From the NCBI RefSeq assembly GCF_037935975.1, contig NZ_CP149817.1, positions 3,100,001 through 3,164,000 of the forward strand: 64,000 nt of DNA, given 5' to 3'. The translations under genes were made by a program, and so were the position numbers. Below the pieces are notes generated by a model, which was given only the letters and a program-made list of their open reading frames with translations, searched no databases and had not been told where the DNA came from. Shown here piece by piece: positions 46,896-64,000 of this stretch. Source of the stretch: Teredinibacter turnerae (GTDB lineage Bacteria; Pseudomonadota; Gammaproteobacteria; Pseudomonadales; Cellvibrionaceae). Within the stretch, counting starts at the first letter, position 1; each line of letters starts with the position of its first letter.

Positions 46896-47447
46896 ATGAA
46901 AGGCATCATTTTTACCGTTTTTTCTGACTTCGTGGAAACTACCTACGGCGTCGACCAATTGGATGACATCTTAGATTCGTGTGACCTTGCATCAGGTGGC
47001 GCCTATACTGCCGTTGGCACATACGATTTTTCAGAACTGCAGGCGCTTTTTGGCGCGCTCTGCAAAGCACAAAACATGGAGCTGAGTGAAGCGCTAAGGC
47101 TGTACGGTCACCACCTGGCAGCCGCTTTCGTTACCCAGTATCCAGACTTTTTCCAGGAAGTTGACGATACCTTCTCCTTGCTCAAAAACATTGAAAATCA
47201 CATTCATGTAGAGGTGCGTAAACTCTACCCGAACGCCGAGCTTCCCAGCTTCTCGCACAAGCACGATGAATCAGACCGCCTCACTCTCATTTATAGTTCA
47301 CCGAGAAAACTAGGTGACCTTGTAGTTGGTCTAATAGAAGCGGCCTCAGGCTACTATAAAGAAACGATCCGAATAGAGCGAAAAAGCCCGATAGATGCAC
47401 CCGCAGAAAGCGAGCACTTTTATCTAACAAGACTCAGTAATGGATAG
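46896..47447 (+). CDS. H-NOX heme nitric-oxide sensor
   Basis: A 183-aa H-NOX protein: [26 protein letters not shown] at the start, proximal heme ligand His102 in [20 protein letters not shown], and the propionate-binding YxSxR motif at Tyr133-Ser135-Arg137 (IYSSPRKL). It binds NO (or oxygen) at heme in the cytoplasm and controls its partner kinase. Its end overlaps the kinase start by 8 bp, so the two are made in fixed ratio. I did not see the distal Tyr needed for stable oxygen binding, which favours NO. Confidence 0.92.
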
Positions 47448-49113
47448 CGAAATCGAAAAACTACAACGCCGTTGCGAACGAGAGCGAAAAGCACGACAAG
47501 AAGCAGAACAACTTCTCGAGTCCAAAAGTCGGCAGCTGTTCCACGCTAACGAATGCCTGGAAAAAGCAACGCGACATCTCGAAAAAATCGTTTCAGAACG
47601 GACTGAAGAACTTGAAAGAGCTAGAGACGAGGCCCTGGCCAGCGTGCGCGCAAAGGGTGAATTCCTGGCAAATATGAGCCATGAGATCCGTACCCCCATG
47701 AATGGTATCGTGGGAATGCTGCGTGCACTGAAGAAAGACCAGCACACCGACAAGCGCGAAAAACTTGTCGATACCGCCATTCACTCCAGCAAAATTCTGG
47801 TGGATATTCTTAACGACATTATTGAGTACTCCAAATTTGAAGCCGTGGGTGTCGATATAGAATTAAGCCCGACCAACATAACTGACACTTTGGAGTCCGT
47901 CGCCGACACCTACGCCTTTCCCATTCAAAAAAAGGGGCTCGAATTTATTCTCGATTTTTCATTGGATATACCCAAGCTTATAAGCACTGATGCGGTTCGC
48001 ATAAAGCAGGTGGTGGGCAACTTCTTGAACAACGCGGTAAAATTTACCGAATCAGGTTACATTATTCTAAGCGCACACATGCAAAATGACGGGGCCATTG
48101 CGATTTCCGTGACCGACTCTGGTAAAGGCATCTCCCAAGAGCAGCTGGAATTGATATTTCAAGCCTTTAACCAGGGAGATACCTCAGTAACACGAAAATA
48201 TGGTGGCTCGGGATTGGGGCTGGCAATATCATCCAAAATAGTCAAACGCTTGGGTTCAAAAATACAGGTAGTAAGTCAGGAGTCTGTTGGTTCGCGATTT
48301 AGCTTCTCATTGTCAGCGCCTATCGTCAGCCATAGAAACTATTTGGAAGATTTGGCAAAAACAAAAATTAATTCAGCGATTCTAATATCGCCAAGTGTTG
48401 AGTTTCAGGAATCATTTCTCTGGTTGTTTTCCCGCTCCAGCAATATCAAAGGACACTGCTACTCATCAGTTAAAGAAATCGATTTTAAGGAACGCTTTGA
48501 CGAAAACACCATCATTTTCTTCGATGTGCGCGACGATTTCAACGCAGACGTCATGCCCATTCTAAGAAAAAAGTGCCCTGAACCGTTACTAATTGCCTTG
48601 GAAAATATCGAAGCCAAATGCGACAACCATCCCTACGCTAATCATGTAATCACGGCGCCTCTAAAGCCACGCAAAGTGGTTGAACTGATCACCAATATCA
48701 GCGAGGACGATTCGGAGCCTGAAGCAGAAAAGATTTTATTTTCAGGTAAGCGCCTGTTGATCGTTGACGACAACAGCATCAACCTTGAAGTGGCAGACTG
48801 GCTATTGTCCGACTTACAGTTTGAAGTAGAAACCTGCAACAGCGGCATGGCCGCTATAGAGAGGCTTGACGAGAAGCGTTTTGACTTAGTACTGATGGAT
48901 ATTCAAATGCCGGAGATGGATGGGCTGACCACAACACGGCATATCCGACAGCACAGCGTCAAAAACAAGCATACGCCCATCGTAGCAATGACAGCGCACG
49001 CTCTGGAAGAGGACAGAGAAAAAAGTTTAGCGTCTGGTATGAACGATCACGCAACAAAACCCCTCGATCCAGACGCCCTGGCAGAAAAACTCAAAAAAGT
49101 ACTGAGCAAATAA
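47440..49113 (+). CDS. H-NOX-associated hybrid histidine kinase
   Basis: A 557-aa soluble kinase with no membrane segment. It has a coiled coil (1-65), HisKA with His81 in [15 protein letters not shown], HATPase_c (N box [30 protein letters not shown]), a degenerate receiver-like linker (about 305-435), and a C-terminal receiver with Asp487 in [13 protein letters not shown] and Lys in HATKPLDPD. It is translationally coupled to the H-NOX sensor and should be inhibited or activated by it, then pass phosphate to its own receiver, the Hpt protein and the response regulator. Confidence 0.92.
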
Positions 49114-49278: not shown

Positions 49279-51321
49279 TTAGAAAGTAATCGAAACACCT
49301 ATCGACGGGAATACACCCATGTCAACTGACTCTTTGAGATAAAGTTCGCCAGTTTCGTTTACTTTTTTGTAATCGAGATTTTCTTCCGATACGTTCTCAC
49401 GATTCAGCAAGTTAAGAATATCTACAAAAAAGCTGGCCTCATTACCCGCGACGGAAAACCGGCGTTCCGCACGAAAATCCAGTCGAGAGTAATAGGGCAA
49501 GCGTTCCGCGTAAGCCTCACCGTAAACAGGTAAATAACGGCCTTCAAAATCTTCATTCGGTTTGATACCGACAATTTCCGTTGTGGCCTGCCCACTCTTA
49601 TAAGTAAACCTCCCGCCGAGCATCCACTTTTCAGTGAGCTGATAGTTCGCCACTAAGTTAAACACTACGGGCGTATCTAACGTGTATTCACGGGTTTCTT
49701 CGGTACGTAGATTAGTGCGTTCACTCTCGGCGAGCGATACGGCAACCCAGCCAAACCACTTTTCAGCAAGGTTTTTATTGAGCATAATATCAACACCACG
49801 TACCTCCCCTTCTACGTCGTTGCTGTAGTAGTTGTCGGCATCGGGTTGACTCTCGTCAAGCGCAAGTGGAAGATTAGTTAACATTTTAAAATAGCCTTCC
49901 ACGGACCAGGTCCAGGAATCACCCACTTCGCCGGCTAAGCCAAGTGTATAGTGCTCCGCGCGATGTGATTCCAGCGCAGGGTTACCTACTGCTGGCACAA
50001 TTGTTTCAATATCCGGTGTACGATTATAGCGACCACCCGAGGTAGACACCGTTAAGCCCTCAACGAACATCCAAGAAAGTGCCAGCTTAGGGTTTACGTA
50101 ATAATCTTCCGTATAATCGTTACCACTTCTCTGTACACCGAGCTCTACCGATACCCTGTCGGTTGGCTGCCAAAAATCGGTTAAATAGATATTCGTCTCG
50201 GCAATATCGACACTCACCACTTCTTCAACAAGACCACGACGATCTTCACAATCAACATCGAAATCCGTACATATAAAGCGAATTAAACGCGCATTATAAT
50301 CATGGGTTTTATTACTGTATTCACCACCCAACGACACAGTATGATTGCCAAACTGCTGACTAAGGTGGCCTCGCGCCAAGATATTTTCCAACTCCAACTC
50401 AAGATAATAGTCATCACCCCACTCCACTAATCGCGAGTCGGCGTAACGCGCGAGGGTTAAATTCGACTCTACGTTATTATCGGATACAAACGTGTAGTTA
50501 ATACCCTGACTATGAAAATTTCGATCAATCGTCGCCAGACCAGCGAAATCAGGATTTTTCTGGGCTTCATTGTTATATTCACCAAATTCAGCTTCGGCAA
50601 AATCGGAGGCACCTGCCAGGCTCAAACTTAAGCTATGACTGTCTGCCATGTCCCATTTGGTTTTGAACTGATAGTCCGTATCTTTCGGGGCGCTGATAAC
50701 ACGAACGCCATCATCATCCGGCTCATCATCCTCACTCACAAACAAATGAATAAGGCCATGGCGGGCAGAAAGGTAAAAAGCTGCGCTATCCGAGAGTCCA
50801 CTTTCCACAAACACACCAGCTCGCAGCATAGAAGCAGTAACTTTGGTCACAAAGGCGTCATTGACTGGATCCCGCAATCGGATATCAAAAACAGCACCGG
50901 TCGCTTCAGAATATTGCGCACCAAATCCCGCTGCAAATAGTTGGAAATCCTGCACAACATTTTCATCGAATATCGATGTATTAAATTCATGAAAAATATA
51001 ACCCGCAGGCATTCCATCGATATAATAGCGATTGTCCTCCGGCGCAGAACCTCGCACAGCGGGTTCACCGCCATCCCGTGGAGTGATAACGCCAGGCAGT
51101 GCAGTAATCGCGCCTACAGGATCACCAAAACTCCCCGGCATATTGGTGAGCTTCTCTGCGCTTTGAGTAATTTCGGTATAGCCAGCTTGGCGAAAACCGA
51201 GCACGATGGTCTCCTCTATATTATTAGAGTTCGCGTTATTATCGGTAAGCGTTTGAGCGACTAGAATTCCTGGCTGACAAGCTGCCATCGCACCAAGTGC
51301 GGCAATGTATAGCGATTTCAT
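49279..51321 (-). CDS. TonB-dependent receptor of the NRPS cluster
   Basis: A 680-aa receptor with a signal peptide, a plug (about residues 50-155: LTNMPGSFGDPVGAITALPGVITPRDGGEPAVRGSAPEDNRYYIDGMPAGYIFHEFNTS), and a barrel ending PSIGVSITF. It lacks the long TonB-box spacer seen in sugar receptors, and the plug is of the short type. It is the last gene of the minus-strand NRPS run and may take the peptide product or its metal complex back up. The gap of 159 bp to the next gene holds a fragment of the miniature element. Confidence 0.85.
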   Translation of the reverse strand: MKSLYIAALGAMAACQPGILVAQTLTDNNANSNNIEETIVLGFRQAGYTEITQSAEKLTNMPGSFGDPVGAITALPGVITPRDGGEPAVRGSAPEDNRYYIDGMPAGYIFHEFNTSIFDENVVQDFQLFAAGFGAQYSEATGAVFDIRLRDPVNDAFVTKVTASMLRAGVFVESGLSDSAAFYLSARHGLIHLFVSEDDEPDDDGVRVISAPKDTDYQFKTKWDMADSHSLSLSLAGASDFAEAEFGEYNNEAQKNPDFAGLATIDRNFHSQGINYTFVSDNNVESNLTLARYADSRLVEWGDDYYLELELENILARGHLSQQFGNHTVSLGGEYSNKTHDYNARLIRFICTDFDVDCEDRRGLVEEVVSVDIAETNIYLTDFWQPTDRVSVELGVQRSGNDYTEDYYVNPKLALSWMFVEGLTVSTSGGRYNRTPDIETIVPAVGNPALESHRAEHYTLGLAGEVGDSWTWSVEGYFKMLTNLPLALDESQPDADNYYSNDVEGEVRGVDIMLNKNLAEKWFGWVAVSLAESERTNLRTEETREYTLDTPVVFNLVANYQLTEKWMLGGRFTYKSGQATTEIVGIKPNEDFEGRYLPVYGEAYAERLPYYSRLDFRAERRFSVAGNEASFFVDILNLLNRENVSEENLDYKKVNETGELYLKESVDMGVFPSIGVSITF

Positions 51322-51480: not shown

Positions 51481-52422
51481 TCAGGCTGTGAGAGCGTCCT
51501 CAATCTCTGCAAAACGCTCGCTGTATTTTTTTACAATCTCGCTGGGCGAACTATAGTTTTCCCCTGCCCGGCTGTAAAAATATTTTAATACTTCTAACTC
51601 CGGATCAGCATGGGGATCTTCCATCAGATAATCGATGAATTCCAACGAGCCCATTTCGTGGATAAAATTCCAAGTAATGGAGACTGAATCTTCCAGTACC
51701 AACACGTCGTGCAACCAACCATGTGGTACATATGCCACATTGCCGGGGCCAACAACCCCGTGAAAGTCGGGTTCTGGCTGACATTTTTCCAGCGCGTTTG
51801 GGCGCACGTCAATGAATCCGCCAAACGATGTAGAGTCAGGAACCGTATCACGCAGCTCTTCCGCGCGATCAGGGCTATACATTACGAAATCTTTCACCCC
51901 ATAAAATTGCGCAACCACGGCATCACTACAAAATGGGTCGGTGTGCAGGCGCGTACGGGCTCCCTTCGCAGCGATTAGAATCCCCCTATAGGGGAACCCA
52001 TCAGTAACAGGGTCGACATAGCCAGACTGGCTCGCTGGCACCAGCAGATCCGTTGCCGGCAAGAATTCAGGTTTGCTCCATAAATGTTTAACCCGATCAA
52101 ATGCTTCATCGCCCCAGGCATGATCAATCGCCTTAAGCTGGTTGTACCAGCGAACATAGCGCACCTGATCGCGAAAGTCTGAATGGCCGAAATTTTCGTC
52201 GAGGTATTTTTTGAGTGTTGATACTTCCTGTAATGCGAACAAGGTATCGTACACCTGCACTTCCAGGTCGCCAGCGAGTTCCGCCAGCGCCTCTGGCGAC
52301 CAACATTCCGCTTTAAAAGTGGTATCTTTTACAACGACTGGTCGATTCGGTTTTACGTACTCTTCGATAAATTCGCGTTCCGTTAGGGTTTCGCGATACT
52401 CGATATTCTGGACACTTGCCAT
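51481..52422 (-). CDS. Cupin/JmjC-type Fe(II)/2-oxoglutarate oxygenase of the NRPS cluster (copy 2)
   Basis: A 313-aa cupin-8/JmjC protein with PNRPVVVKDTTFKAECW at the start, the HxD metal pair in RTRLHTDPFCSDAVVAQFYGVKDFVMYSPD (about residue 158), GNVAYVPHGWLHDVLVLEDSVSITWNF with the distal His (about 237), and a helical C-terminal end. A very strong AAGGAGGGGG site precedes the ATG. It lies 28 bp after the diaminobutyrate aminotransferase gene. In this setting it may hydroxylate an amino acid or the carrier-bound peptide. It is only distantly like copy 1 at 42877. Confidence 0.83.
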   Translation of the reverse strand: MASVQNIEYRETLTEREFIEEYVKPNRPVVVKDTTFKAECWSPEALAELAGDLEVQVYDTLFALQEVSTLKKYLDENFGHSDFRDQVRYVRWYNQLKAIDHAWGDEAFDRVKHLWSKPEFLPATDLLVPASQSGYVDPVTDGFPYRGILIAAKGARTRLHTDPFCSDAVVAQFYGVKDFVMYSPDRAEELRDTVPDSTSFGGFIDVRPNALEKCQPEPDFHGVVGPGNVAYVPHGWLHDVLVLEDSVSITWNFIHEMGSLEFIDYLMEDPHADPELEVLKYFYSRAGENYSSPSEIVKKYSERFAEIEDALTA

Positions 52423-52450: not shown

Positions 52451-53764
52451 TTATACGTTCTCTGATACTGAGTGATTAGCACCGAAAGGTTTAAAGTGCT
52501 CTACGCTCAACCCTATCGATTCCGCAATAGAGTATTCAACAATATCAAGCCCTTTCCGTAAAACATCCAGATCGACATTGAGCGCGGGCATGATTTTGAG
52601 AACTTGATCCCGATCACCCGCCCGCTCAATAACCAGGCCATTTTTAAAGCACAGCTTGGATATTTGAGCAGTGAGGTTTTCATCAAAAAACTCCATACCC
52701 TGCATTAAACCCAAGCCACGGGCCACCTTAATCAGGCCAGAATGTTCACGGTGCATTCGGTGGCAAAAATCGCTCACAATCGCGGCGCGCTGTGCAATCT
52801 CTTGCTCAAATTCAAAACCTTGCCAGTAGCCGTTAACCATCGCAGCAGCAGCGACAAAGGCCATATTGTTGCCGCGGAAAGTACCGTTGTCTTCTCCTGC
52901 ACCCCATACATCCAACGCATCTTTAAATAGGAGCAACGACATTGGAATGCCAAAGCCTCCAATCGACTTGGACAAGCACACCAGGTCAGGCTCGATGCCT
53001 GCACGCTCAAAACTGAAGAACTTTCCGGTTCGGCCACAACCCGCTTGCACATCGTCGACGATAACAAGTGCTCCGAACTCCTTGGCCAGCTCCATCAAGC
53101 CTTGTAGCCATTTCTCGCTGGCAACGTTAATTCCACCCTCACCTTGCACAGTTTCGAGGATAAACGCAGCGGGAAGATCGACACCTGAGCTATTGTCCAA
53201 CAAGAGTTTGCGGTAGTGAGCGATCTCGTCGAAACCTTCACCCATGTAGCCAAAAAATGGCAGGCGGGTCACGCTACTATAGGAAATTGCCTGGCGGTTG
53301 TATCGATTACCAGTAACACTGAGTGACACGCCGGTCATTCCATGGAAACCATTGGTAAACGCGATAATATTTTCACGACCGGTAAATTTCCGTGCAAGTT
53401 TAATCGCCGACTCAACCACACTAGTACCGGTCGGACTGGTAAACTGCATGCGATAGCGCAGGTTGCGGGGCATGAGAATTTGCTCATTAAAGGTTTGGAT
53501 AAACTCCCGCTTAGCCTGGGTGTGAAAATCCAACCCCATCGCAATACCATCACTATCGAGGTAGGCCATAATCGCGTCTTTAATGATCGGGTTGTTGTGG
53601 CCATAATTGACCGCACCAGCGCCGCACAGAAAGTCGATATAGCTATTACCGAATTCATCGTATAAAAGGCTACCTCTCGCCTTCGAGAAAACAGAAGGAA
53701 AGGCGCGGCAGTAAGACCTCACTTGCGATTCATTATCTTCGAACACACTCAAGTTCTTTTCCAT
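52451..53764 (-). CDS. Diaminobutyrate-2-oxoglutarate aminotransferase
   Basis: A 437-aa class III PLP aminotransferase of the EctB/Dat type: RGSLLYDEFGNSYIDFLCGAGAVNYGHNNP, QFTSPTGTSVVESAIKLARKFTGRENIIAFTNGFHGMTGVSLSVTG, IVDDVQAGCGRTGKFFSFE, and the PLP Lys in LVCLSKSIGGFGIPMS. It makes L-2,4-diaminobutyrate from aspartate semialdehyde. No ectA or ectC is present, so it is not for ectoine but for supplying the NRPS. ATG 53764 has GGAG six bases upstream and is preferred over the ATG at 53776. Confidence 0.9.
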   Translation of the reverse strand: MEKNLSVFEDNESQVRSYCRAFPSVFSKARGSLLYDEFGNSYIDFLCGAGAVNYGHNNPIIKDAIMAYLDSDGIAMGLDFHTQAKREFIQTFNEQILMPRNLRYRMQFTSPTGTSVVESAIKLARKFTGRENIIAFTNGFHGMTGVSLSVTGNRYNRQAISYSSVTRLPFFGYMGEGFDEIAHYRKLLLDNSSGVDLPAAFILETVQGEGGINVASEKWLQGLMELAKEFGALVIVDDVQAGCGRTGKFFSFERAGIEPDLVCLSKSIGGFGIPMSLLLFKDALDVWGAGEDNGTFRGNNMAFVAAAAMVNGYWQGFEFEQEIAQRAAIVSDFCHRMHREHSGLIKVARGLGLMQGMEFFDENLTAQISKLCFKNGLVIERAGDRDQVLKIMPALNVDLDVLRKGLDIVEYSIAESIGLSVEHFKPFGANHSVSENV

Positions 53765-53802
53765 GCAATACTCCATACCAGATGTTGCTGCCTTACCGGC
53801 AC

Positions 53803-55173
53803 CTAAAAGTTGTAGATGATCCGGGCAATGGTACTACCCTGATCGAATTCGCCGCTTATGTTATCCAAATTAAAAACATCTACCTGAACGGTCAGGTTGT
53901 CAGTAGCGCGATAGGATGCCATAAGGTGTGCAATACTCGATTCCAACGCAATTTCGTATTGATATTCCAGATAAACTTCTACAAGCTCATGATAAAACCG
54001 ATTGGATACACCAAAATAAAATTCGTCCAGGCGACTCTCTTTTAATTCAAAGTGTTCGGTGTAATCAAGAAACTCGGTGTGTAAAACGCCAAAATTCCAC
54101 TCTCGCAATCCATTTTCCTGATAAGTACTATTCACTGCGAATAGCACCTCATCGCTTTCCGCATAACCCAAATTATATTTTGCGAGCGATGCGCCGCTCC
54201 CATCGATGCCTTGCGCGCGCTCATTATTAAAAGCAGCTTCAATTTTGAGCGACGTATTCCCGAGGTTAATGTTCGCCGCCGCACCAAACATACTGTAAGC
54301 CGCGTAGTAGTTTGCCTCTTCTTCGCCAGTACGGGTGTTATAGCGGGTGACCGCCCCGTTATCCAATACATCGGCGTACATCAGGGACAGATCGGCCCTG
54401 CCGACCGCCGCCTTCCAACGCAAACCGACCTCGATGTCTTTATCTTCCTCCTCGGCAGTCAGGTCGTTCGTCGCGACTGCGGGCTGTTCGTCAAACTTGA
54501 TATCGGGGTTTGCGATCAGCGATAACTGATGTTTACCCACGTATTGGTCGACGACCAGCATTGTTTGTGACAAGCGCGACTCATCCAGACTCGTGAATAC
54601 CAGGTCTTGTATGTTTTGCGGGCTGATAATATCCGTCACCGGGCTAGCCTCAGCCTCACCCCAGACAACTATCTTCCTGCCGAAAGTAACTGATGTAGTG
54701 CCCTGGGTAAAAGACGCATATAGCTCTTTGGTTTTCAGTTCGCCGTCAATATCCTGATCTGACTCAAGCGCGTCGTCGCCAGGCAAATACACGATGGGCT
54801 TCACATCAACGTTCAGGTACAAATGATTGCCGACAAATCGGTTCCACTGAAAGCGAAGCGAAGAGCGATTGCTACCGACCTCTTCGGGGTCGGTAAAAAT
54901 ATAAGCCAGATCGTGCTGATAAATAAATTTTCGATTGCCGCCCAAAAGCTGCTTGGATTGCGGTGCGGCAGAGCTTACCTGATCACCACCGGAATCCAGC
55001 GCAAACTCCTCCCCCAACGACAGGGATTCACCAAGATATAGCTCGGAGTCGTCACTAAACTCCAGGTCATCAAGCTCGGTATCGTCTTGTGCGACAGCCA
55101 CTGGTGCAAGCGCAACGCCCGCAAACGCGCATCCGGCGAGCAGAGCCCGCCGGTTAAATCTTATTGTTTTCAT
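53803..55173 (-). CDS. Outer-membrane beta-barrel protein, DUF1302-like
   Basis: A 456-aa protein with a signal peptide containing RFNRRALLAG, then an acidic region (30-70), then a barrel of about 16 strands. GRKIVVWGEAEASPVTDIISPQNIQDLVF (about 165-195) resembles the WGE...D..SP.N motif of DUF1302 barrels. The protein ends in ..IARIIYNF with a C-terminal Phe. It follows the ABC permease by 13 bp. Within this cluster it is the natural candidate for the outer-membrane exit or a protective pore for the peptide; this is inferred from position. The twin Arg in the signal is unusual for a barrel protein. Confidence 0.6.
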   Translation of the reverse strand: MKTIRFNRRALLAGCAFAGVALAPVAVAQDDTELDDLEFSDDSELYLGESLSLGEEFALDSGGDQVSSAAPQSKQLLGGNRKFIYQHDLAYIFTDPEEVGSNRSSLRFQWNRFVGNHLYLNVDVKPIVYLPGDDALESDQDIDGELKTKELYASFTQGTTSVTFGRKIVVWGEAEASPVTDIISPQNIQDLVFTSLDESRLSQTMLVVDQYVGKHQLSLIANPDIKFDEQPAVATNDLTAEEEDKDIEVGLRWKAAVGRADLSLMYADVLDNGAVTRYNTRTGEEEANYYAAYSMFGAAANINLGNTSLKIEAAFNNERAQGIDGSGASLAKYNLGYAESDEVLFAVNSTYQENGLREWNFGVLHTEFLDYTEHFELKESRLDEFYFGVSNRFYHELVEVYLEYQYEIALESSIAHLMASYRATDNLTVQVDVFNLDNISGEFDQGSTIARIIYNF

Positions 55174-55186
55174 TCGTCGACTCGGG

Positions 55187-56311
55187 TTACCACTTGAACT
55201 TCATTTTTGAGATAACCACAGATACCACACACCAGGCAAACAGTACTACCAGCTCCAGACTCATGCCGCCAATCACATTCATATCGTTCGGTTCAAATAA
55301 TACCTTTTGCATAGCCACGTTCAGTTGGGTCAATGGAATGGCCAATGCAATGTACTGAAGCCAGTCTGGAAATAAGCTTACAGAAAAGAACACGCCACCG
55401 AGAACGATAAATGGCATCTGCACGAAATTGACAATTCCGTTAAATGCAGTCGTCGATGGACTGACAGTTGCGATAAACAAGCCAATTCCCAAAAATGCGA
55501 TACTTCCCAAGGTCACCACCAGGAAAAACATAGGAATGTTAAAATCGAACTTGATACCGAACACCAACATGGCTACCAGACACAAACCAATAGCGACAGA
55601 GTGCGACACCAGAAGGCGCGACAAGAACAAACCCGCCAAAAACGGCACAGGAGAAACATCAATGGTTTTGATATTTTTAAATAAACCGTGATGCTCTTCC
55701 TCAATAAGCACTGAACCAAATCCGTTAAAGCCAATGATCATGAGGGTCAGACCAATGAGGCCGGGCAATAACGTGACCAGGTAAGATGTAAGGCGATCGC
55801 TTTTTAAGGTGTACTGGTCCAACTCAATTTCAGTATCACCAGAAACGAGTTGGTCTATAGCGCTCGCCAAGGCAGCATTTTCTATTCGATTTTCATCAAT
55901 ATCATTTTTAATCAGATGCAATGAAATCGTGCCCAGCTTCTCGTTCGCGACTTGCGCAGGTTCAACATCTACCCCGTAAGCGGTAAGGTCTGGCGCTTTG
56001 TCCTGCGCCAGAATTGTCAACACACGCTTTACATCGTTGTCTGCTACCGCCTCATAGGCGGGAATCGATTCCTCATAGGGCTTAAGCTCGATCAGCTTTT
56101 GCTCGTCAAGTAGCGTGATTGTCGCTTTACTTTCTTCATTCGCGGCAAAATCCTGATAGTACACCTCAATTTTAGGGTCGCTCTGTAGCTGCAATGGATA
56201 ACCAATACCCAGCAGCAAAATCACCGGGAACACGTAGCAAAAGAAAAGCGCCGTTTTATCGTACTTCAGCTGCAACATTCGGAGTTTGAAAAATATCCAC
56301 GTCTTCATCAT
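55187..56311 (-). CDS. ABC-2-type transporter permease
   Basis: A 374-aa permease: one N-terminal helix (TALFFCYVFPVILLLGIGY), a large periplasmic domain of about 140 residues, then five to six helices (LVTLLPGLIGLTLMIIGFNGFGSVLIEEEHHGLFKNIKT..., FVQMPFIVLGGVFFSVSLFPDWLQYIALAIPLTQLN). This is the usual plan of ABC-2 drug or lipid exporters. Its ATG overlaps the stop codon of the NRPS-ABC gene (ATGA). Its ATPase partner is therefore the ABC domain at the end of the NRPS. Confidence 0.9.
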   Translation of the reverse strand: MMKTWIFFKLRMLQLKYDKTALFFCYVFPVILLLGIGYPLQLQSDPKIEVYYQDFAANEESKATITLLDEQKLIELKPYEESIPAYEAVADNDVKRVLTILAQDKAPDLTAYGVDVEPAQVANEKLGTISLHLIKNDIDENRIENAALASAIDQLVSGDTEIELDQYTLKSDRLTSYLVTLLPGLIGLTLMIIGFNGFGSVLIEEEHHGLFKNIKTIDVSPVPFLAGLFLSRLLVSHSVAIGLCLVAMLVFGIKFDFNIPMFFLVVTLGSIAFLGIGLFIATVSPSTTAFNGIVNFVQMPFIVLGGVFFSVSLFPDWLQYIALAIPLTQLNVAMQKVLFEPNDMNVIGGMSLELVVLFAWCVVSVVISKMKFKW

Positions 56312-59300
56312 TCTACGAGATCCTTTTTAGTGCTAGAAAGAAATACATCTTCCAGATTCGGGCGGTTAATATTGAAATTGAGAATCTCGAGACTACGCGC
56401 TTCGCTAATACTCAAAATATCTTTCAGTGTTTCTGTGAACTTCGCTGTTTTAATAGTTAACTGGTTGGCCTGGCTTTCCCACTGGTAATCGATAATGCCG
56501 GAAAGTTCCACCAGATAGTCGGTATTAAATTGACCGCGGCCAAACTGAAGGTGAATATCGTGATGCGGACTGAGCTTGTTGATCAGTTCCACAGGAGACC
56601 CTTGTGACACGATCTGCCCCTCACTCATAATCATCAGTTCATCGCACAGCGTTTCTGCTTCTTCCATGTAGTGCGTCGTCAGAATAATCGTTTTGGTTTT
56701 ATCCTGTTTCAGATACTCGATAAAATCCCACACTTCGTGACGACTGTGCGGATCGAGTGCTGAGGTAGGCTCATCGAGGAATAAAATATCCGGATCTTCC
56801 AAAAGCGCAATTGCGATTGACAACCGCTGTTTTTGTCCACCGGACAACTCATCGACTTTGAATTTCTTTTTATCGGTTAAATTGAGACGTTCCAGGAGCT
56901 CGTCAACCGATGCGCCGTTAACCTTGCGCTTATTCGCAGACCGCAAATCTTTGTAAAATTTCAACAACTGATCAACTGTCAGAAATTCAAAGTAGTTGTT
57001 TTGTTGAAGTTGAACACCAATGTGCGGCTGGATTTTTTTGATCTGGCTTTTAACGTCCATGCCCAGCACGCTAATACTGCCAGATGTAATGGAGGATATT
57101 CCTTCTATCATACCAAGCAACGAGGTTTTACCGGCGCCGTTTGGCCCAAGAATGCCAAAGCATATCCCCTTTTCAACGTTGAAACTGACTCCCTTGACCG
57201 CTTCGAAACTTCCGTAGTGTTTCTTGACATCATTGACTTCTATTGAATAACGCATTTCTCGCACTCCATTATTGGATAGCTTGGTACTCGTGGCTGCACT
57301 GGCTGTATTTTCAGCGCGTTGTTGTGTCGCGTTTTTAAGATCATCCAGCGCAGCCTTTTCGCAAGGCAAAACGTTAAACATCTGTTTTTCATCTTTTCCG
57401 TCGCCACGGAACGCACAGTGCACAACCAGCTGGTCGTTCAAGCTTGACGCTTCAAACAGAATTCCACAAAACTGTTTGAGTTTGTCTTCTGCCTGGGTAT
57501 CAGCCAGCAGTTCGTGCATGGTGTCGTAGTCGCTCATTTCCCCTTCATAGTTAAACAAGATTTCGTGTATGAGCCCAGGGAAGGACTGCTTACACAGGTC
57601 GTACCCCTTCTTCTCCAACGCCATGTAACTCAAGCCTGACTCCACCAACACCTGTGTCTGTTGATTGAACGCTGTCATAGTGCTTTCAGGCGTCACTGCA
57701 AAAGGAATCTTGTCGAGAAATAGACCAATTTGGTCAAAATAGCTCTCCTCTCCCAACTGGCGGCCATAGTGATTCATTACCATGACAAAATCATTGAGAT
57801 TAAGAAGACTTGTGACCCATTTTTTAAAATAATCGAATGCCTGGTCTACAGGATTTCGATTCGTATCCAGTGGCAACTTTATAACGACACTACGAAGCTT
57901 TTTGCTACTGCGTGCACGCAGTGCATCCACTGTTGGAGCGACCACTCTGGATGTTCTTTCGAGTGCCAAAATATTGGATATCTTTTCGTAGGCTAGATCG
58001 CTCGCGCTACCCCAGACCTGGGATACATAATCGCGATAGTTATGTCCGATGCATTGCGCACGACCTTTCAACAAATCTTCCAACCGCTGCTGCAGGAATG
58101 CGGAAGACACACCGTCAGACATAAAGTGATCATTCATCATCATTAACTGGTGAAGCGTATCAGACCGCCTTATCCAGGTTCCCATGTAGGGCAGAGATGA
58201 CTTCGCCTGCTTCTTGCGCAACTGGGTAAACAATTGCTTGAGCAGCTTGTTGGCCTCAGATTCTTTCATGCCGGACAGATCGACAACCGGAAAATTCGCC
58301 GTTAAGCTTTCGCGGTCGACAAGCGTCCACTGCTGATTGGATTCATCCAACAGTGAACGCAACATATCCTGCTCCACCATAAGCTGATAGAAGGCATCCT
58401 GTAACTGCGCGGTAGAAAAGTAGCCGTGTACCGAGACCCATTCGAAATGATCCCGTGTACGCCATTGTGTCAATTCCTGTTGCAGCGGGGTGAACGGAAT
58501 ATCGGCTTCTGTTTTGGCAGTCGTAAGATTGCGCTCGAATTCGTCGAGCTGTGCTGACAGCGATTTTTTCACCGCACCTGGATTCGTAGCTTGCCAATGC
58601 GTCAGCGCATGTAACCCACGAGTTTCCAGGCGAGCTACCGCAGCGCTCGGCGAGCCATCAAAGCAGATGTAATCAGGGAGATTGGTGGGTTCTTCAGCCG
58701 ACAAAATACGGCTCAGCTCCGCTTGCTGCTCTTGAAGCTCGTCGGCAACCACGAGGACTTTTATGGGTGAACTGTGCCAGTTCACGTGCGCCCATAGCAC
58801 CGGAGCTGTTTGTTGTTCAATCCATACAGCGAGTGTTTTTTCTGCCACAACCACACACGCCGAACAATCTTTAAGCACGCGGTGCTGATAAATATCGTTG
58901 GCACGCAGCTCAATTCCGACAGCTTTCAATTCGCTTAACATGCGAATAATTTGAATGGAGTTACCACCCAGATCAAAAAAGTTATCGTTGCGGCCGATCT
59001 TGTCAATTTGCAGAATCTGTTGCCAGGTTTCAGCCATTGCGATTTCCACATCCGTCTCCGGCGCTGCGTACTCGGACTGCATTGACGACAGTTCGGGTTC
59101 AGGCAACAACTTGCGATCCACCTTGCCGTTGTTATTCAACGGCATAGCGTCCAGCCCCATAAATACGGCTGGCACCATATACTCTGGCAGTTCCGCCGCA
59201 AGATGCTGACTGAGTGCGTCTTTGGTGACGGGTGTGCTGTGGTAGGTAAGGTACGCCACCAGGTACTTTTCACCTTGCGCATTCGGCCGTGCCATAACCA

Positions 59301-62300
59301 CGGCCTCTCGTACTTGCGGATGCTGAGACAGGCGGCTTTCGATTTCACCGAGTTCGATGCGGAAGCCCCGGACTTTTACTTGAAAGTCTTTTCGCCCCAT
59401 ATATTCGAGGCTGCCGTTTTCATGGCGCTTTACTAGGTCGCCCGTGAGATACAGACGTGTGTCCAGGTCGTCCTGGGCGTAGGGATTGGCCTTGAAAACT
59501 TCGTTAGTCAGCTCAGGGCGATGCAGATAACCACGCCCAACCACCGGGCCTGAAATGGCCAACTCACCGACAACACCAACCGGCAATAGCGCGAGCTGGT
59601 TGTCCACTACATGCAATCGGGCATTCGCCACAGGTTTACCGATAAACACTCTTTCGACCGGGCCATGAATTGGCTGGAACGACACATCATCCGAACACTC
59701 CGCAGGACCATAGGCGTTCATCAACGGTACGGCGGGGTATTGTTTGAACCAGCGCTCCACCAAGCCGGACACCAGGGCTTCACCTGTCGGTAATACCCAA
59801 CGCAAATCGGGGAGCGGATGCGCCAAAGGCAGAAGGGCCTGCATAACCGAAGGAACCGGCTCCCACACGGTGACATGATTGTCCGCAAGACAAGATACCA
59901 ACGCCTGTGGGTCTTTAGTGGTTTCGTTGGTAACGATGACTACCGTTGCACCCAGAATCGGGGCGGTTAGAAATTGCCAAACCGAAATATCGAAACACTG
60001 AGACGCGGTTTGTGCGATCACGTCACCAGCAGATAAACCGAGCGGTTCAACTTTGGACATCATGTTGTTCACCATCCCCAGGTGTTCGATCATGACGCCT
60101 TTCGGCTTACCTGTTGAACCGGAGGTGAAAATAACGTATGCGAGGTCATCCAGCGCAACATCCGACAGCGTAACATCCGCGTTTTCACCACCCACGCACG
60201 CCTCGTCCAGCGTAACAATACTGTCCTTCGCCCATTTCCGTTTTAGCCAACGGGACTCTATCGCGAAGCCGTTACCAGTAATTAACAGGTTCGGTTTTGA
60301 ATCCTGCAAAATTTCAAGCCAGCGCTTGGTAGGCTGGGTTGGGTCTAGCGGCAAATAGGCGGCACCAGCACGAAGCACACCGATAATCATTATCAGCAGA
60401 TCAATACCGCGGTGATCCAGCAGGCCGATAATACTACCCCTACCCAGCCCTTTGGCTTGCAGAGCACGAGCCAGTACACCGGTGTGCGCTTCGAGTTCGG
60501 CAAAGGTCAGTGAGCGATCGTCACAAATGGCAACCACTTTATCTGCCGACTGTGCGACTTGTTCGTGAAAAAGTTGCAACCAGGTTTTACTGAACAATTG
60601 TCGCTGCAAGGGCGCGTTGAATTCGGACAATAATTGCGTCTGTTCGTCATCTGTCAATACAGGCAAAGTCAGCAAATGACTTTCCGGTTCGTTGATAAGC
60701 GCCAAGCTGACTTGTTCCAGAGCGCGACTCATGTACGCCATGATTCGTTCAGCGCCGATATCCCGGTCAATACTCGCGGTCAGCTCAAACGTGTGGCCCT
60801 GATCGCTGATCGACATGTCGAACAGATAGTTACTAATATCACCAGGGCTGGAAAGAATGCTCACACCTTCCAACGCCTGTTGCAGGTCCAGCTTTTCACC
60901 GCCCTCATGACGGTAGTTCAATACCGCACTGAACAGCGGCGTGGAGCCGGGAAGATCTGCGCAACGCTGAGCATCTACCAGCGGCGCTTGTTCGTAGTTG
61001 AGCAGCTCTACCAAAGAGTCTCGTGTTAGCTGCATAGCCTGCGCAACACTCAGCCCCGCCAATTTGAGCCGCATAGGCAACATATTAATAAACAAACCGA
61101 AAGTGCGGTCAGAACCACTGGCTCCCTGCAACCGGCCGGATGTTACAGTGCCAAAGACCACATCATCCCGGTTGCAACACCGTGCGAGAACCAGGCCCCA
61201 CGCCAAATGGAATATTGCCGCCGGCGATGCCGCCAGGCGATTAGAGACATCGCGAATGAGCTGCGTGGTTTTGCCATCCAGGGTTCGAATGAGTTCTTCG
61301 GTTTGCTTATCTCCGCGATAAACATCCATTAAGCCAAAAGGCGCTGTTGGCTCGTCGATGCCTGCCAATAACTGAGTAAAATAAGCCGTCGCATCATATT
61401 TTTCGGCGCGGTACATGCTATGAGCAACAAACTCGCGATAAGGCACTGGCGGTTTAAGTTCCGCGCCTCGCCCTTCCATCAATGCCATAATGTCCTGGAA
61501 CTCAATTTCCATGGAGACCTGATCACACATTAAGTGGTGCTGTTGTTGCAGCACAATCCAGAGACCGGTCTTTTCATCCTGAGCGATTGTTAAGCCGACC
61601 ACTGGTGCACGCGTCAGATCAATATGGCGACCTTCCAGCGACATCATCTCTTCAAACTGAGCGACTGCATCCCGGTCAGTATCCAGCGTTATTTCATTTA
61701 TTTTCAGTGGTGCATCGCGATAAACAACCTGTACCGAACGGGGCAGGTTTTCCCAAATAATCGCTGACCGTAACGAATCATGGCGGTTAACCAACTGCTG
61801 CATCGCATCAAGATAGCGGTCCAATACCGCACGGGTTTCGAAACCCACTAAGACTGAAGCGAGATAGGTATCGCCGACATCGCTCACCAGGTGGTCGAAT
61901 AAAATCCCTTCCTGGAGAGGTGTGAGCGGATAAATGTCTTGAATATTGCTGTGTCCGCCTGGCACCTGCGCCGCGATCTGGTCTATCTGCGTTTGCGATA
62001 GTGCCACCAGCGGCAACATTGCTGGCAGAACCTGGTTACAACCAGCAGGAATCAAGTTCTGCGGTGGAACATAAGTTTCCTGTACCTCATCGGATTGAAT
62101 ATGACGCGCAAGGTCGGCAAGATCTTCTGCATCAAACACCCTGCGCACATCCATATTCAAGTTGTGCGCACGCAGTGCCTCAATGAGTTTCATTACCAGC
62201 AGCGAATGGCCACCGAGGTTAAAGAAATTATCTTTGCGCCCTACCCGTTCAACATTCAGCAATGATTGCCAGGTTTCCGCCAAGATGGTCTCGACACTTC

Positions 62301-64000
62301 CGACGGGAGCTACATATTCTGCGGTACTTAAACTATTGGCGTCCGGCTGCGGCAAGGCTTTATTGTCAACTTTGCCATTTGGCGTAAGTGGAATAGCCTG
62401 CAGTTCAATCAACCAGCTTGGCACCATATATTCGGGGAGCTGGGCGCGAATAGCTTCGCGAATCTGATCGATATTGGCCTCACTGGAAGGTTGCTTAACC
62501 ACATAGCCCACCAGCCGCTTATCTTGCTCGGCCACTTCGACAACCCGCACCACAGCTTCTTTAACGTCAGACAGCTGTACCAGGCGTGACTCAATCTCAC
62601 CCAGCTCGATGCGAAAGCCACGCACTTTTACCTGGTTATCCTTGCGGCCAATAAATTCCAAGCTGCCGTCGGCATGGCGTTTTGCCAAATCGCCTGTTAA
62701 ATATAAACGCGCATCCATATCGTCTTGAGGATAAGGATTCACGCGGAAGGCCTTATCGGTAAGGTCTGGGCGATGCAGATACCCACGCCCTACAACGGGA
62801 CCGGATACAGCCAGCTCGCCAACAACGCCTACCGGTAACAGGTTAAGGAAGTTATCGACAATATGCAGGCGCGCATTTGCCACCGGGGTGCCGATTAAAA
62901 CCCGATCCACGGGGCTGTACATAGGTTGTAGCGAAACATCGTCCGAACATTCTGCCGGGCCATAAAGATTCAGAAGTGGAATTTCCGGGTATTTTTCAAA
63001 CCAGCGATCGACCAGTGCCGATTTGAGCGCTTCACCGGTCGGCAGTACCCAGCGCATCGAGGGAAGCGATTTGTCGAGCGGCAAAATCGCCTGAATCACC
63101 GAAGGCACCGGCTCCCAAATGGTGACCTGACACTGCTCTAAAAAGTTAACCAACGCCTGCGGATCTCGCGTGGTTTCGTTGGTAAAAATAACCACTTTCG
63201 CCCCGAGGATGGGCGCGGTAAGAAACTGCCAAACAGAAATGTCAAAGCATTGAGAGGCGGTCTGAGCGATCACGTCATTTTCAGTCAAACCCAATGGCTC
63301 AACTTTAGATAACATGTTATTGATCATGCCGCGATGTTCCACCATGACCCCTTTGGGCTTGCCAGTAGAACCCGATGTAAACAACACGTACGAAAGATCG
63401 TCCAGGGAAACCTCTGGCAGCGCGCGATCATCCGCGTCCATACCGTAGACTTCGTGCAACTGTGCTATCTGGTCTGCTTCCCAGCTCGCGCGCAGCTGAT
63501 TCGCAGACTCAGTTAGACTGTCGCCAACCAGCAAGACATCCGGGCGTGAATCCTCGAGAATCTCCAACCAACGCTTTTCTGGCTGTGTCGGGTCTAGCGG
63601 TAAATAGGCCGCACCAGCGCGCAGAACGCCGACAATCATCGTCAACAGATCTAAACCTCGGTGGTCCAACAATGCCACGATATTGTCGCGACCGAGGTTG
63701 TTGCACATTAAAACGCGGGCGATGCGCGCAGAACTGGCTTCCAGCTCGGCGAGCGTGAGCGTTTTGCCTTCACACTCGGCAACAATTTTTTGTGGATTTT
63801 TTTCAACTTGCGCAGCAAACAGAGCAGGCCAGGATGCACTGATTAATTCAGGAACCACGGGGTGGTTAAAGTTGCGCAATAAATCGGTTATTTCCGGCTC
63901 ATCCATAACCGTTATACTGTGTAGCGGCGCTTGAGGTGCAGCTATCGCGTTCACAATAAACCGTTCGAAATGCTTCGCCATACGCGCGATGGTCGATTCA
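56308..64000 (-). CDS. NRPS with C-terminal ABC-transporter ATPase fusion (5' end outside window)
   Basis: The open frame continues through the right edge. Visible order (residues counted from the Met at 63981): end of a condensation domain (1-45); A1 (50-555); carrier (570-640, DNFFNLGGHSLL); condensation (675-1110, IYPLTPLQEGILF, HHLMCDQ); A2 (1130-1640); carrier (1650-1720, DNFFDLGGNSIQ); a divergent terminal condensation domain (about 1820-2240, DHFMSDG); and an ABC ATPase (2243-2557, GPNGAGKTS, LSGGQKQR, ILFLDEPTSALD). There is no thioesterase. The specificity codes I read are D-I-W-E-L-T-L-D-D and D-I-W-E-L-T-A-D-D, whose acidic residues suit a basic side chain such as diaminobutyrate. 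Confidence 0.92.
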   Translation of the reverse strand, partial: ESTIARMAKHFERFIVNAIAAPQAPLHSITVMDEPEITDLLRNFNHPVVPELISASWPALFAAQVEKNPQKIVAECEGKTLTLAELEASSARIARVLMCNNLGRDNIVALLDHRGLDLLTMIVGVLRAGAAYLPLDPTQPEKRWLEILEDSRPDVLLVGDSLTESANQLRASWEADQIAQLHEVYGMDADDRALPEVSLDDLSYVLFTSGSTGKPKGVMVEHRGMINNMLSKVEPLGLTENDVIAQTASQCFDISVWQFLTAPILGAKVVIFTNETTRDPQALVNFLEQCQVTIWEPVPSVIQAILPLDKSLPSMRWVLPTGEALKSALVDRWFEKYPEIPLLNLYGPAECSDDVSLQPMYSPVDRVLIGTPVANARLHIVDNFLNLLPVGVVGELAVSGPVVGRGYLHRPDLTDKAFRVNPYPQDDMDARLYLTGDLAKRHADGSLEFIGRKDNQVKVRGFRIELGEIESRLVQLSDVKEAVVRVVEVAEQDKRLVGYVVKQPSSEANIDQIREAIRAQLPEYMVPSWLIELQAIPLTPNGKVDNKALPQPDANSLSTAEYVAPVGSVETILAETWQSLLNVERVGRKDNFFNLGGHSLLVMKLIEALRAHNLNMDVRRVFDAEDLADLARHIQSDEVQETYVPPQNLIPAGCNQVLPAMLPLVALSQTQIDQIAAQVPGGHSNIQDIYPLTPLQEGILFDHLVSDVGDTYLASVLVGFETRAVLDRYLDAMQQLVNRHDSLRSAIIWENLPRSVQVVYRDAPLKINEITLDTDRDAVAQFEEMMSLEGRHIDLTRAPVVGLTIAQDEKTGLWIVLQQQHHLMCDQVSMEIEFQDIMALMEGRGAELKPPVPYREFVAHSMYRAEKYDATAYFTQLLAGIDEPTAPFGLMDVYRGDKQTEELIRTLDGKTTQLIRDVSNRLAASPAAIFHLAWGLVLARCCNRDDVVFGTVTSGRLQGASGSDRTFGLFINMLPMRLKLAGLSVAQAMQLTRDSLVELLNYEQAPLVDAQRCADLPGSTPLFSAVLNYRHEGGEKLDLQQALEGVSILSSPGDISNYLFDMSISDQGHTFELTASIDRDIGAERIMAYMSRALEQVSLALINEPESHLLTLPVLTDDEQTQLLSEFNAPLQRQLFSKTWLQLFHEQVAQSADKVVAICDDRSLTFAELEAHTGVLARALQAKGLGRGSIIGLLDHRGIDLLIMIIGVLRAGAAYLPLDPTQPTKRWLEILQDSKPNLLITGNGFAIESRWLKRKWAKDSIVTLDEACVGGENADVTLSDVALDDLAYVIFTSGSTGKPKGVMIEHLGMVNNMMSKVEPLGLSAGDVIAQTASQCFDISVWQFLTAPILGATVVIVTNETTKDPQALVSCLADNHVTVWEPVPSVMQALLPLAHPLPDLRWVLPTGEALVSGLVERWFKQYPAVPLMNAYGPAECSDDVSFQPIHGPVERVFIGKPVANARLHVVDNQLALLPVGVVGELAISGPVVGRGYLHRPELTNEVFKANPYAQDDLDTRLYLTGDLVKRHENGSLEYMGRKDFQVKVRGFRIELGEIESRLSQHPQVREAVVMARPNAQGEKYLVAYLTYHSTPVTKDALSQHLAAELPEYMVPAVFMGLDAMPLNNNGKVDRKLLPEPELSSMQSEYAAPETDVEIAMAETWQQILQIDKIGRNDNFFDLGGNSIQIIRMLSELKAVGIELRANDIYQHRVLKDCSACVVVAEKTLAVWIEQQTAPVLWAHVNWHSSPIKVLVVADELQEQQAELSRILSAEEPTNLPDYICFDGSPSAAVARLETRGLHALTHWQATNPGAVKKSLSAQLDEFERNLTTAKTEADIPFTPLQQELTQWRTRDHFEWVSVHGYFSTAQLQDAFYQLMVEQDMLRSLLDESNQQWTLVDRESLTANFPVVDLSGMKESEANKLLKQLFTQLRKKQAKSSLPYMGTWIRRSDTLHQLMMMNDHFMSDGVSSAFLQQRLEDLLKGRAQCIGHNYRDYVSQVWGSASDLAYEKISNILALERTSRVVAPTVDALRARSSKKLRSVVIKLPLDTNRNPVDQAFDYFKKWVTSLLNLNDFVMVMNHYGRQLGEESYFDQIGLFLDKIPFAVTPESTMTAFNQQTQVLVESGLSYMALEKKGYDLCKQSFPGLIHEILFNYEGEMSDYDTMHELLADTQAEDKLKQFCGILFEASSLNDQLVVHCAFRGDGKDEKQMFNVLPCEKAALDDLKNATQQRAENTASAATSTKLSNNGVREMRYSIEVNDVKKHYGSFEAVKGVSFNVEKGICFGILGPNGAGKTSLLGMIEGISSITSGSISVLGMDVKSQIKKIQPHIGVQLQQNNYFEFLTVDQLLKFYKDLRSANKRKVNGASVDELLERLNLTDKKKFKVDELSGGQKQRLSIAIALLEDPDILFLDEPTSALDPHSRHEVWDFIEYLKQDKTKTIILTTHYMEEAETLCDELMIMSEGQIVSQGSPVELINKLSPHHDIHLQFGRGQFNTDYLVELSGIIDYQWESQANQLTIKTAKFTETLKDILSISEARSLEILNFNINRPNLEDVFLSSTKKDLVE
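57255..57274 (-). promoter_or_regulatory. Possible internal ribosome site and start for the ABC ATPase
   Basis: Inside the NRPS frame, GGAG lies eight bases before an ATG (57255) that is the natural first residue of the ABC domain (MRYSIEVNDVKKHYGSF). The piece from here to the stop is 315 aa, the normal length of a free ABC-2 ATPase. A separate ATPase could thus be made from the same message. This is suggested by position only. Confidence 0.45.

Follow-up and report, generated by a model that had tools for sequence, protein, structure and literature searches.

We describe here a nonribosomal peptide synthetase (NRPS) gene whose frame leads from a divergent terminal condensation domain, by way of a 52-codon linker, to a complete ABC-2 exporter ATPase, all in one chain, with a ribosome-binding-site-like sequence and an in-frame ATG just before the ATPase portion. 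The arrangement has the look of a nested gene: a single frame would yield a tethered ATPase and probably a free ATPase too. The passage of nonribosomal peptides from synthetase to exporter is poorly understood, and a natural fusion together with its split relatives forms a matched set in which physical coupling of synthesis to export can be tested.

The fused gene and its neighborhood

The window analyzed is a stretch of 64,000 nucleotides (G000:C1:3100001-3164000) from a genome, G000, that consists of a single 5.35 Mb contig. The whole NRPS-ATPase frame spans G000:C1:3156308-3176749 and encodes 6813 residues. The features discussed below are, in window positions:

49279..51321 (-): TonB-dependent receptor-like outer-membrane protein (Pfam)
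51481..52422 (-): Cupin_8 protein (Pfam)
52451..53776 (-): diaminobutyrate--2-oxoglutarate transaminase, EctB type (above cut-off)
53803..55173 (-): DUF1302 protein (Pfam)
55187..56311 (-): ABC-2 permease, overlapping the NRPS-ATPase stop at ATGA; PF12698 (ABC2_membrane_3), 108.9 bits, cut-off 31.6
56308..64000 (-): 3' part of the NRPS-ATPase gene, whose frame starts beyond the window at 76749 in window numbering
56308..57255 (-): ABC-2 ATPase portion from the internal ATG; Walker A (57147), LSGGQ (56847) and Walker B (56787) intact
57236..57417 (-): 182-nt run without a difference between G000 and G003, longer than any other in the alignment of their clusters, where local divergence is reduced
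57256..57267 (-): Shine-Dalgarno-like GGAG with 8-nt spacer, inside the frame and 5' of the ATPase ATG
57256..57411 (-): 52-codon linker, diverged in sequence among G000, G005 and G001, with no gap, and with no stop in four orthologs
57412..58782 (-): terminal divergent condensation-type domain with the stretch that precedes it after the last PCP (profile, 11-row alignment)

A sequence-only reading of this DNA had proposed that the NRPS is fused without a stop to an ABC-2 ATPase with intact Walker A, signature and Walker B motifs, that its stop codon overlaps the permease start, and that it lacks a thioesterase and closes with a condensation domain, and each of these points held up. The frame is continuous, with the junction also open in all three other same-genus orthologs; all three motifs are present in the ATPase portion; the TGA and ATG overlap by 4 nt; and Pfam, run on the entire NRPS in four pieces, found no thioesterase, the C-terminus included. 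The part of the frame within the window contains AMP-binding, Condensation and PP-binding domains together with ABC_tran (108.9 bits) by Pfam, and motifs and Pfam together place five adenylation domains, condensation domains and an epimerization-like domain in the whole NRPS, the last of which we take to be marked by its HHxxxDG and EGHGRE motifs. For one 438-residue stretch of the NRPS, Pfam returned only a Condensation domain.

The terminal domain is a divergent member of its family, scoring 35.5 bits against PF00668, above the cut-off of 30.6, and 8 of the 11 aligned terminal-domain rows match this family at E 0.01. The usual condensation catalytic motif is HHxxxDG; in its place the window's terminal domain has DHxxxDG, of which the His and both Asp are invariant over the 11 rows, with Gly replaced by Lys in three. 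No solved structure matched the terminal-domain sequence significantly (best E 0.041). This unusual domain also closes a third NRPS family (L021, L022, L023; frames of 2964-2979 residues), where it is not fused.

Among NCBIfam models, the ATPase matches DrrA (TIGR01188) best, at 253.8 bits under a curated cut-off of 312.45, followed by NodI, and the permease also matches DrrB weakly. Between G000 and G003, 63 codons of the ATPase portion have changed synonymously and one with an amino-acid change; on this comparison, the ATPase is under strong purifying selection.

Beyond the permease, the EctB-type transaminase is probably involved in building-block supply, and the Cupin_8 protein is possibly a hydroxylase. 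Upstream of the NRPS lie LolA-like, MMPL and acyltransferase genes, an alpha-oxoamine-synthase-like enzyme (matching oxononanoate synthase and serine palmitoyltransferase models, both under cut-off), an epimerase-family protein and a 5311-residue polyketide synthase (PKS), in which, scanned as two pieces, no acyltransferase domain was among the families listed. The alpha-oxoamine-synthase-like enzyme and the HpnA-like epimerase-family protein adjoin the PKS (L008:7596-9852), as if the polyketide chain were converted to an amino alcohol. Adjoining the cluster at window positions 46896-49113 (+) are a Haem-NO-binding (H-NOX) protein and then a hybrid histidine kinase, and genes matching them in size and ends adjoin the cluster of G003; NO-responsive control by this pair is possible.

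Fused and split relatives

With the terminal domain as query (E 0.001), 10 of 97 genomes matched, the window's own included, and five held a close ortholog. Four of these are fused, namely G000 and three other genomes of the same genus, G003, G005 and G001, whose terminal domains are 93, 55 and 50% identical to the window's. The other four of the eight same-genus genomes carry free ATPases only, at most 41% identical to the window's ATPase, and 41% is the best value for a free ATPase across the same-genus genomes. The fifth close ortholog, in Cellvibrio mixtus J3-8 (G008), consists of two genes. A scan of named genomes, from which G000 and its nearest relatives may be absent, gave more distant loci in Cellvibrio sp. 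79 (L051), Cellvibrio mixtus J3-8 (L052) and Collimonas humicola (L053); L051, G449 and G881 denote a single place, counted once, and L015, L032 and L052 are one genome. At all three loci the NRPS stops and the ATPase is an adjacent separate gene. The sequence-only reading had named related genomes with two separate genes as evidence against its fusion, and such genomes do exist (3/3 distant orthologs, two Cellvibrio and one Collimonas), but all four orthologs within the genus are fused.

The ATPase as query (E 1e-60) matched 8 of 144 family genomes: four with fusions (G005 twice), two Cellvibrio with separate genes, and two distant matches in short frames. Larger samples of the order (390 genomes, E 1e-65), the class (369, E 1e-60), the order of Collimonas (399, E 1e-60) and the phylum (398, E 1e-55) gave matches in NRPS-length frames only for G000 and G003, in samples that overlap and were scored on the best few candidates per genome, such that an NRPS fused to a less similar ATPase would be missed. 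An initial contig scan with a single protein as query gave no match, and among at least 5000 plasmid records none covered 80% of the query, the best 15 listed being NodI ATPases. Counted in this way, the joint architecture occurs as an ortholog in four same-genus genomes and a second time in G005.

This second NRPS of G005 is a 5356-residue frame whose terminal domain, 28-29% identical, is in frame with an ATPase 52-53% identical to the window's, and it is followed by its own permease, a DUF1302 protein (also placed 3' of the permease in the window, by Pfam) and a TauD-like enzyme. Between 87 and 11 codons before its Walker A motif there is no ATG, GTG or TTG, with the rarer ATT and ATA present, and therefore this ATPase has no common start codon from which to be translated on its own; it probably works fused. 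In G000 and G003, an NRPS similar to this one stops, the next gene listed is TauD-like, and the ATPase-permease-DUF1302 set is missing; downstream, G000 has an ABC exporter of ABC_membrane type (Pfam), and G003 a gene that equals it in length and start. Otherwise similar NRPS clusters (L062 and L063 against L061) have exchanged exporters, with a fused set in G005 versus a one-piece ABC exporter in G000.

In a tree of ATPase plus permease (eight rows with both proteins and two outgroups with the ATPase only), the fused same-genus orthologs form a clade (97/92) sister to Cellvibrio (99.2/97), followed by Collimonas, with the G005 paralog outside at weak support (75.4/75). This tree was used in place of an ATPase-only tree with distant outgroups, which gave no resolution within the family. 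The simplest reading of these relationships would be two separate fusions, although one old fusion with later splits may also account for them.

A stop codon lost to a sequencing or assembly error, which the sequence-only reading had raised as a way in which its fusion could fail, is excluded: the frame crosses the junction without a stop in the window and in all three other orthologs of the genus, whose terminal domains are 50-93% identical, no support for such an error was found, and we assign it a vanishingly small probability. Across the linker, gap columns among G000, G005 and G001 number zero. Over its last 34 codons, differences among these three are spread evenly over codon positions, i.e. 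there is no codon periodicity, and by this measure the amino acids of the linker tail are hardly constrained. Nucleotide shuffles of these 34 codons stay open in 18, 11 and 8% of cases singly and in 0.14% for all three together, a figure that takes the three lineages as independent when they are only partly so.

A probable internal start and what the fusion may do

The Shine-Dalgarno-like site and the ATPase ATG, a pair that the sequence-only reading leaves unmentioned, together occupy 57267-57253, and the ATG is kept at the position where the separate ATPase genes of Cellvibrio begin. Ranked by anti-Shine-Dalgarno duplex energy among in-frame ATGs, it stands 6th of 133 in G000, 5th of 133 in G003, 3rd of 128 in G005 and 2nd of 129 in G001. 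Among the 74 Met columns common to the four orthologs, it alone has a strong site in all of them (worst value -5.9 kcal/mol, the next column -3.5), and it also ranks first with four other spacer settings; the register of the site in G001 differs from that in the other orthologs. Equally strong sites occur at about 4% of sampled in-frame positions in G000, G003 and G005 and at 1.3% in G001. Counting against this evidence, synonymous recoding alone reaches an equal site in 19, 17, 7 and 37% of trials (G000, G003, G005 and G001, respectively). Fourfold-site divergence between G000 and G005 is 0.53-0.70 among the ten 200-column windows listed.

The 182-nt run identical in G000 and G003 covers the internal start. 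The second longest such run, of 153 nt (53677-53829), lies across the DUF1302-EctB junction, over the EctB start. In 90-nt start windows, the internal ATPase, permease and EctB starts each show one difference, a count as low as that in 1.9% of windows, and the DUF1302, cupin, TonB and NRPS starts show 10, 10, 11 and 7. As a sign of an internal start this identity is only suggestive, because it lies in a locally less diverged stretch and gene conversion is possible. Predicted RNA folding at the internal start is unremarkable (z 0.10), and a search of 56900-57700 turned up nothing resembling a promoter or a terminator, leaving an internal promoter unsupported.

We favor, at a probability of roughly 0.55, the reading in which a flexible linker ties the terminal condensation domain of the NRPS line to its own exporter's ATPase and so would dock the synthetase on that exporter, with free ATPase also made. 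Read-through would give the 6813-residue fusion, a separate ATPase product, about 315 residues long, would probably come from the conserved ribosome-binding site and in-frame ATG, and either or both forms would pair with the permease encoded directly downstream. By analogy, the fused ATPase may hold the synthetase at the membrane exporter and the finished product may be handed to the pump, with the terminal condensation domain presumably releasing it. We infer these dual products and their expression, the docking, the hand-over, the release and a joint exporter of tethered and free subunits from the arrangement of the genes. Docking is favored because the gene joins partners of the same two kinds as the ATPase CesC and the condensation domain of CesA in cereulide synthesis. 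The conservation of the internal start in turn suggests that the free ATPase matters and that the tether is less than obligatory. The earlier proposal that the fusion tethers the finished peptide to its exporter therefore stands in part: the fusion is conserved and occurs twice, but free ATPase is probably made from the conserved internal start as well, which would leave the tether of this gene less than obligatory, the relatives have split genes, and a coupling of release to transport is conjectural. The terminal domain and the ATPase were modeled together from a 7-row alignment, but the prediction was of low quality (mean pLDDT 51.6) and uninformative on docking, and in a PDB search with the predicted model the best 50 of 1501 matches were ABC transporters or their ATPases, with nothing on the terminal domain.

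The two-gene state of all three distant orthologs and the unconstrained linker tail count against docking and would sit well with a fusion that is incidental, in which an ancestor lost the stop, the working ATPase comes from the internal start, and the tail is tolerated or only couples translation of ATPase and permease to that of the synthetase. The ATG and its Shine-Dalgarno-like site have been kept despite the high synonymous divergence given above, and the relatives have two closely spaced genes, as this account would have it; a linker open and free of gaps in three diverged lineages, and a second fusion, whose ATPase lacks any common start codon and hence probably functions in the fused state, speak against it, and we regard it as rather unlikely. 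Still less probable, in our view, is that the fused ATPase mainly serves the synthetase as a structural or regulatory subunit, with export secondary, a role that has been suggested for CesC. In keeping with it, contact with CesA is weakened or abolished and synthesis stops when the Walker A motif of CesC is mutated or deleted (PMC7527721), but in the loci examined here an ABC-2-type permease comes after the ATPase, and the catalytic motifs of the ATPase are complete. Building on the docked synthetase-exporter, we offer tentatively, at somewhat less than even odds, a wider picture in which the nested gene makes a megasynthase with its motor as well as a free motor, exporters that combine a tethered with a free ATPase sit docked on the assembly line, and covalent coupling has two origins within a single genus, one with a free form and one lacking it.

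Comparison with known systems

Among the titles and abstracts listed in searches of open-licence literature, none describes an NRPS that carries an ABC exporter ATPase in its own chain, in line with the sequence-only reading, which knew of no described NRPS of such a plan. The locus, with one PKS and one NRPS, fits the description of GCF_3, a hybrid trans-AT PKS-NRPS cluster of the same composition that is widespread among shipworm gill symbionts (PMC7329324), and GCF_3 is probably its home, a match made by description only; "ABC" as the start of a word is absent from the main text of that paper.

Close relatives are the NRPS-ATPase-permease genes found in Cellvibrio mixtus J3-8, Cellvibrio sp. 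79 and Collimonas humicola, which have the same kind of terminal domain, the same gene order and an ATPase 62-80% identical. In Cellvibrio the downstream genes are also similar to the window's, judged by their ends, and a protein with a C-terminus similar, by eye, to that of the DUF1302 protein comes after the permease. Unlike in the window, the Cellvibrio genes are separate, with a 16-nt gap, and those of Collimonas would overlap as ATG and stop if the homologous ATG is used. As an exporter, the pair resembles the ABC-2 systems DrrAB and NodIJ, by the ATPase and permease matches given above, but differs from DrrAB in that its ATPase falls under the DrrA cut-off and is carried on an NRPS.

A physical link between a synthase and its transporter is also known for MmpL7 and PpsE in the export of PDIM lipids (as cited in PMC7527721), which differs from the window in that an RND permease and a polyketide synthase are involved and the two are not fused. 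Nearer in kind is cereulide synthesis, in which the ATPase CesC attaches to condensation domains, among them the one at the C-terminus of CesA, the CesCD transporter holds CesA at the membrane, and deletion of cesCD stops cereulide synthesis (PMC7527721). Like CesAB/CesCD, the window has an NRPS beside an ATPase-permease pair, a likeness by kind of partner; unlike there, where contact is between separate proteins (PMC7527721), the ATPase and the terminal condensation domain are here one chain. Physical coupling of an NRPS to an ABC transporter is thus already known, and it is its covalent, nested-gene form that appears to be new. By analogy, the fusion may fix in one chain the kind of non-covalent contact that CesC makes with CesA, and in this way it lends support, from genome evolution, to a contact that had been found by experiment (PMC7527721).
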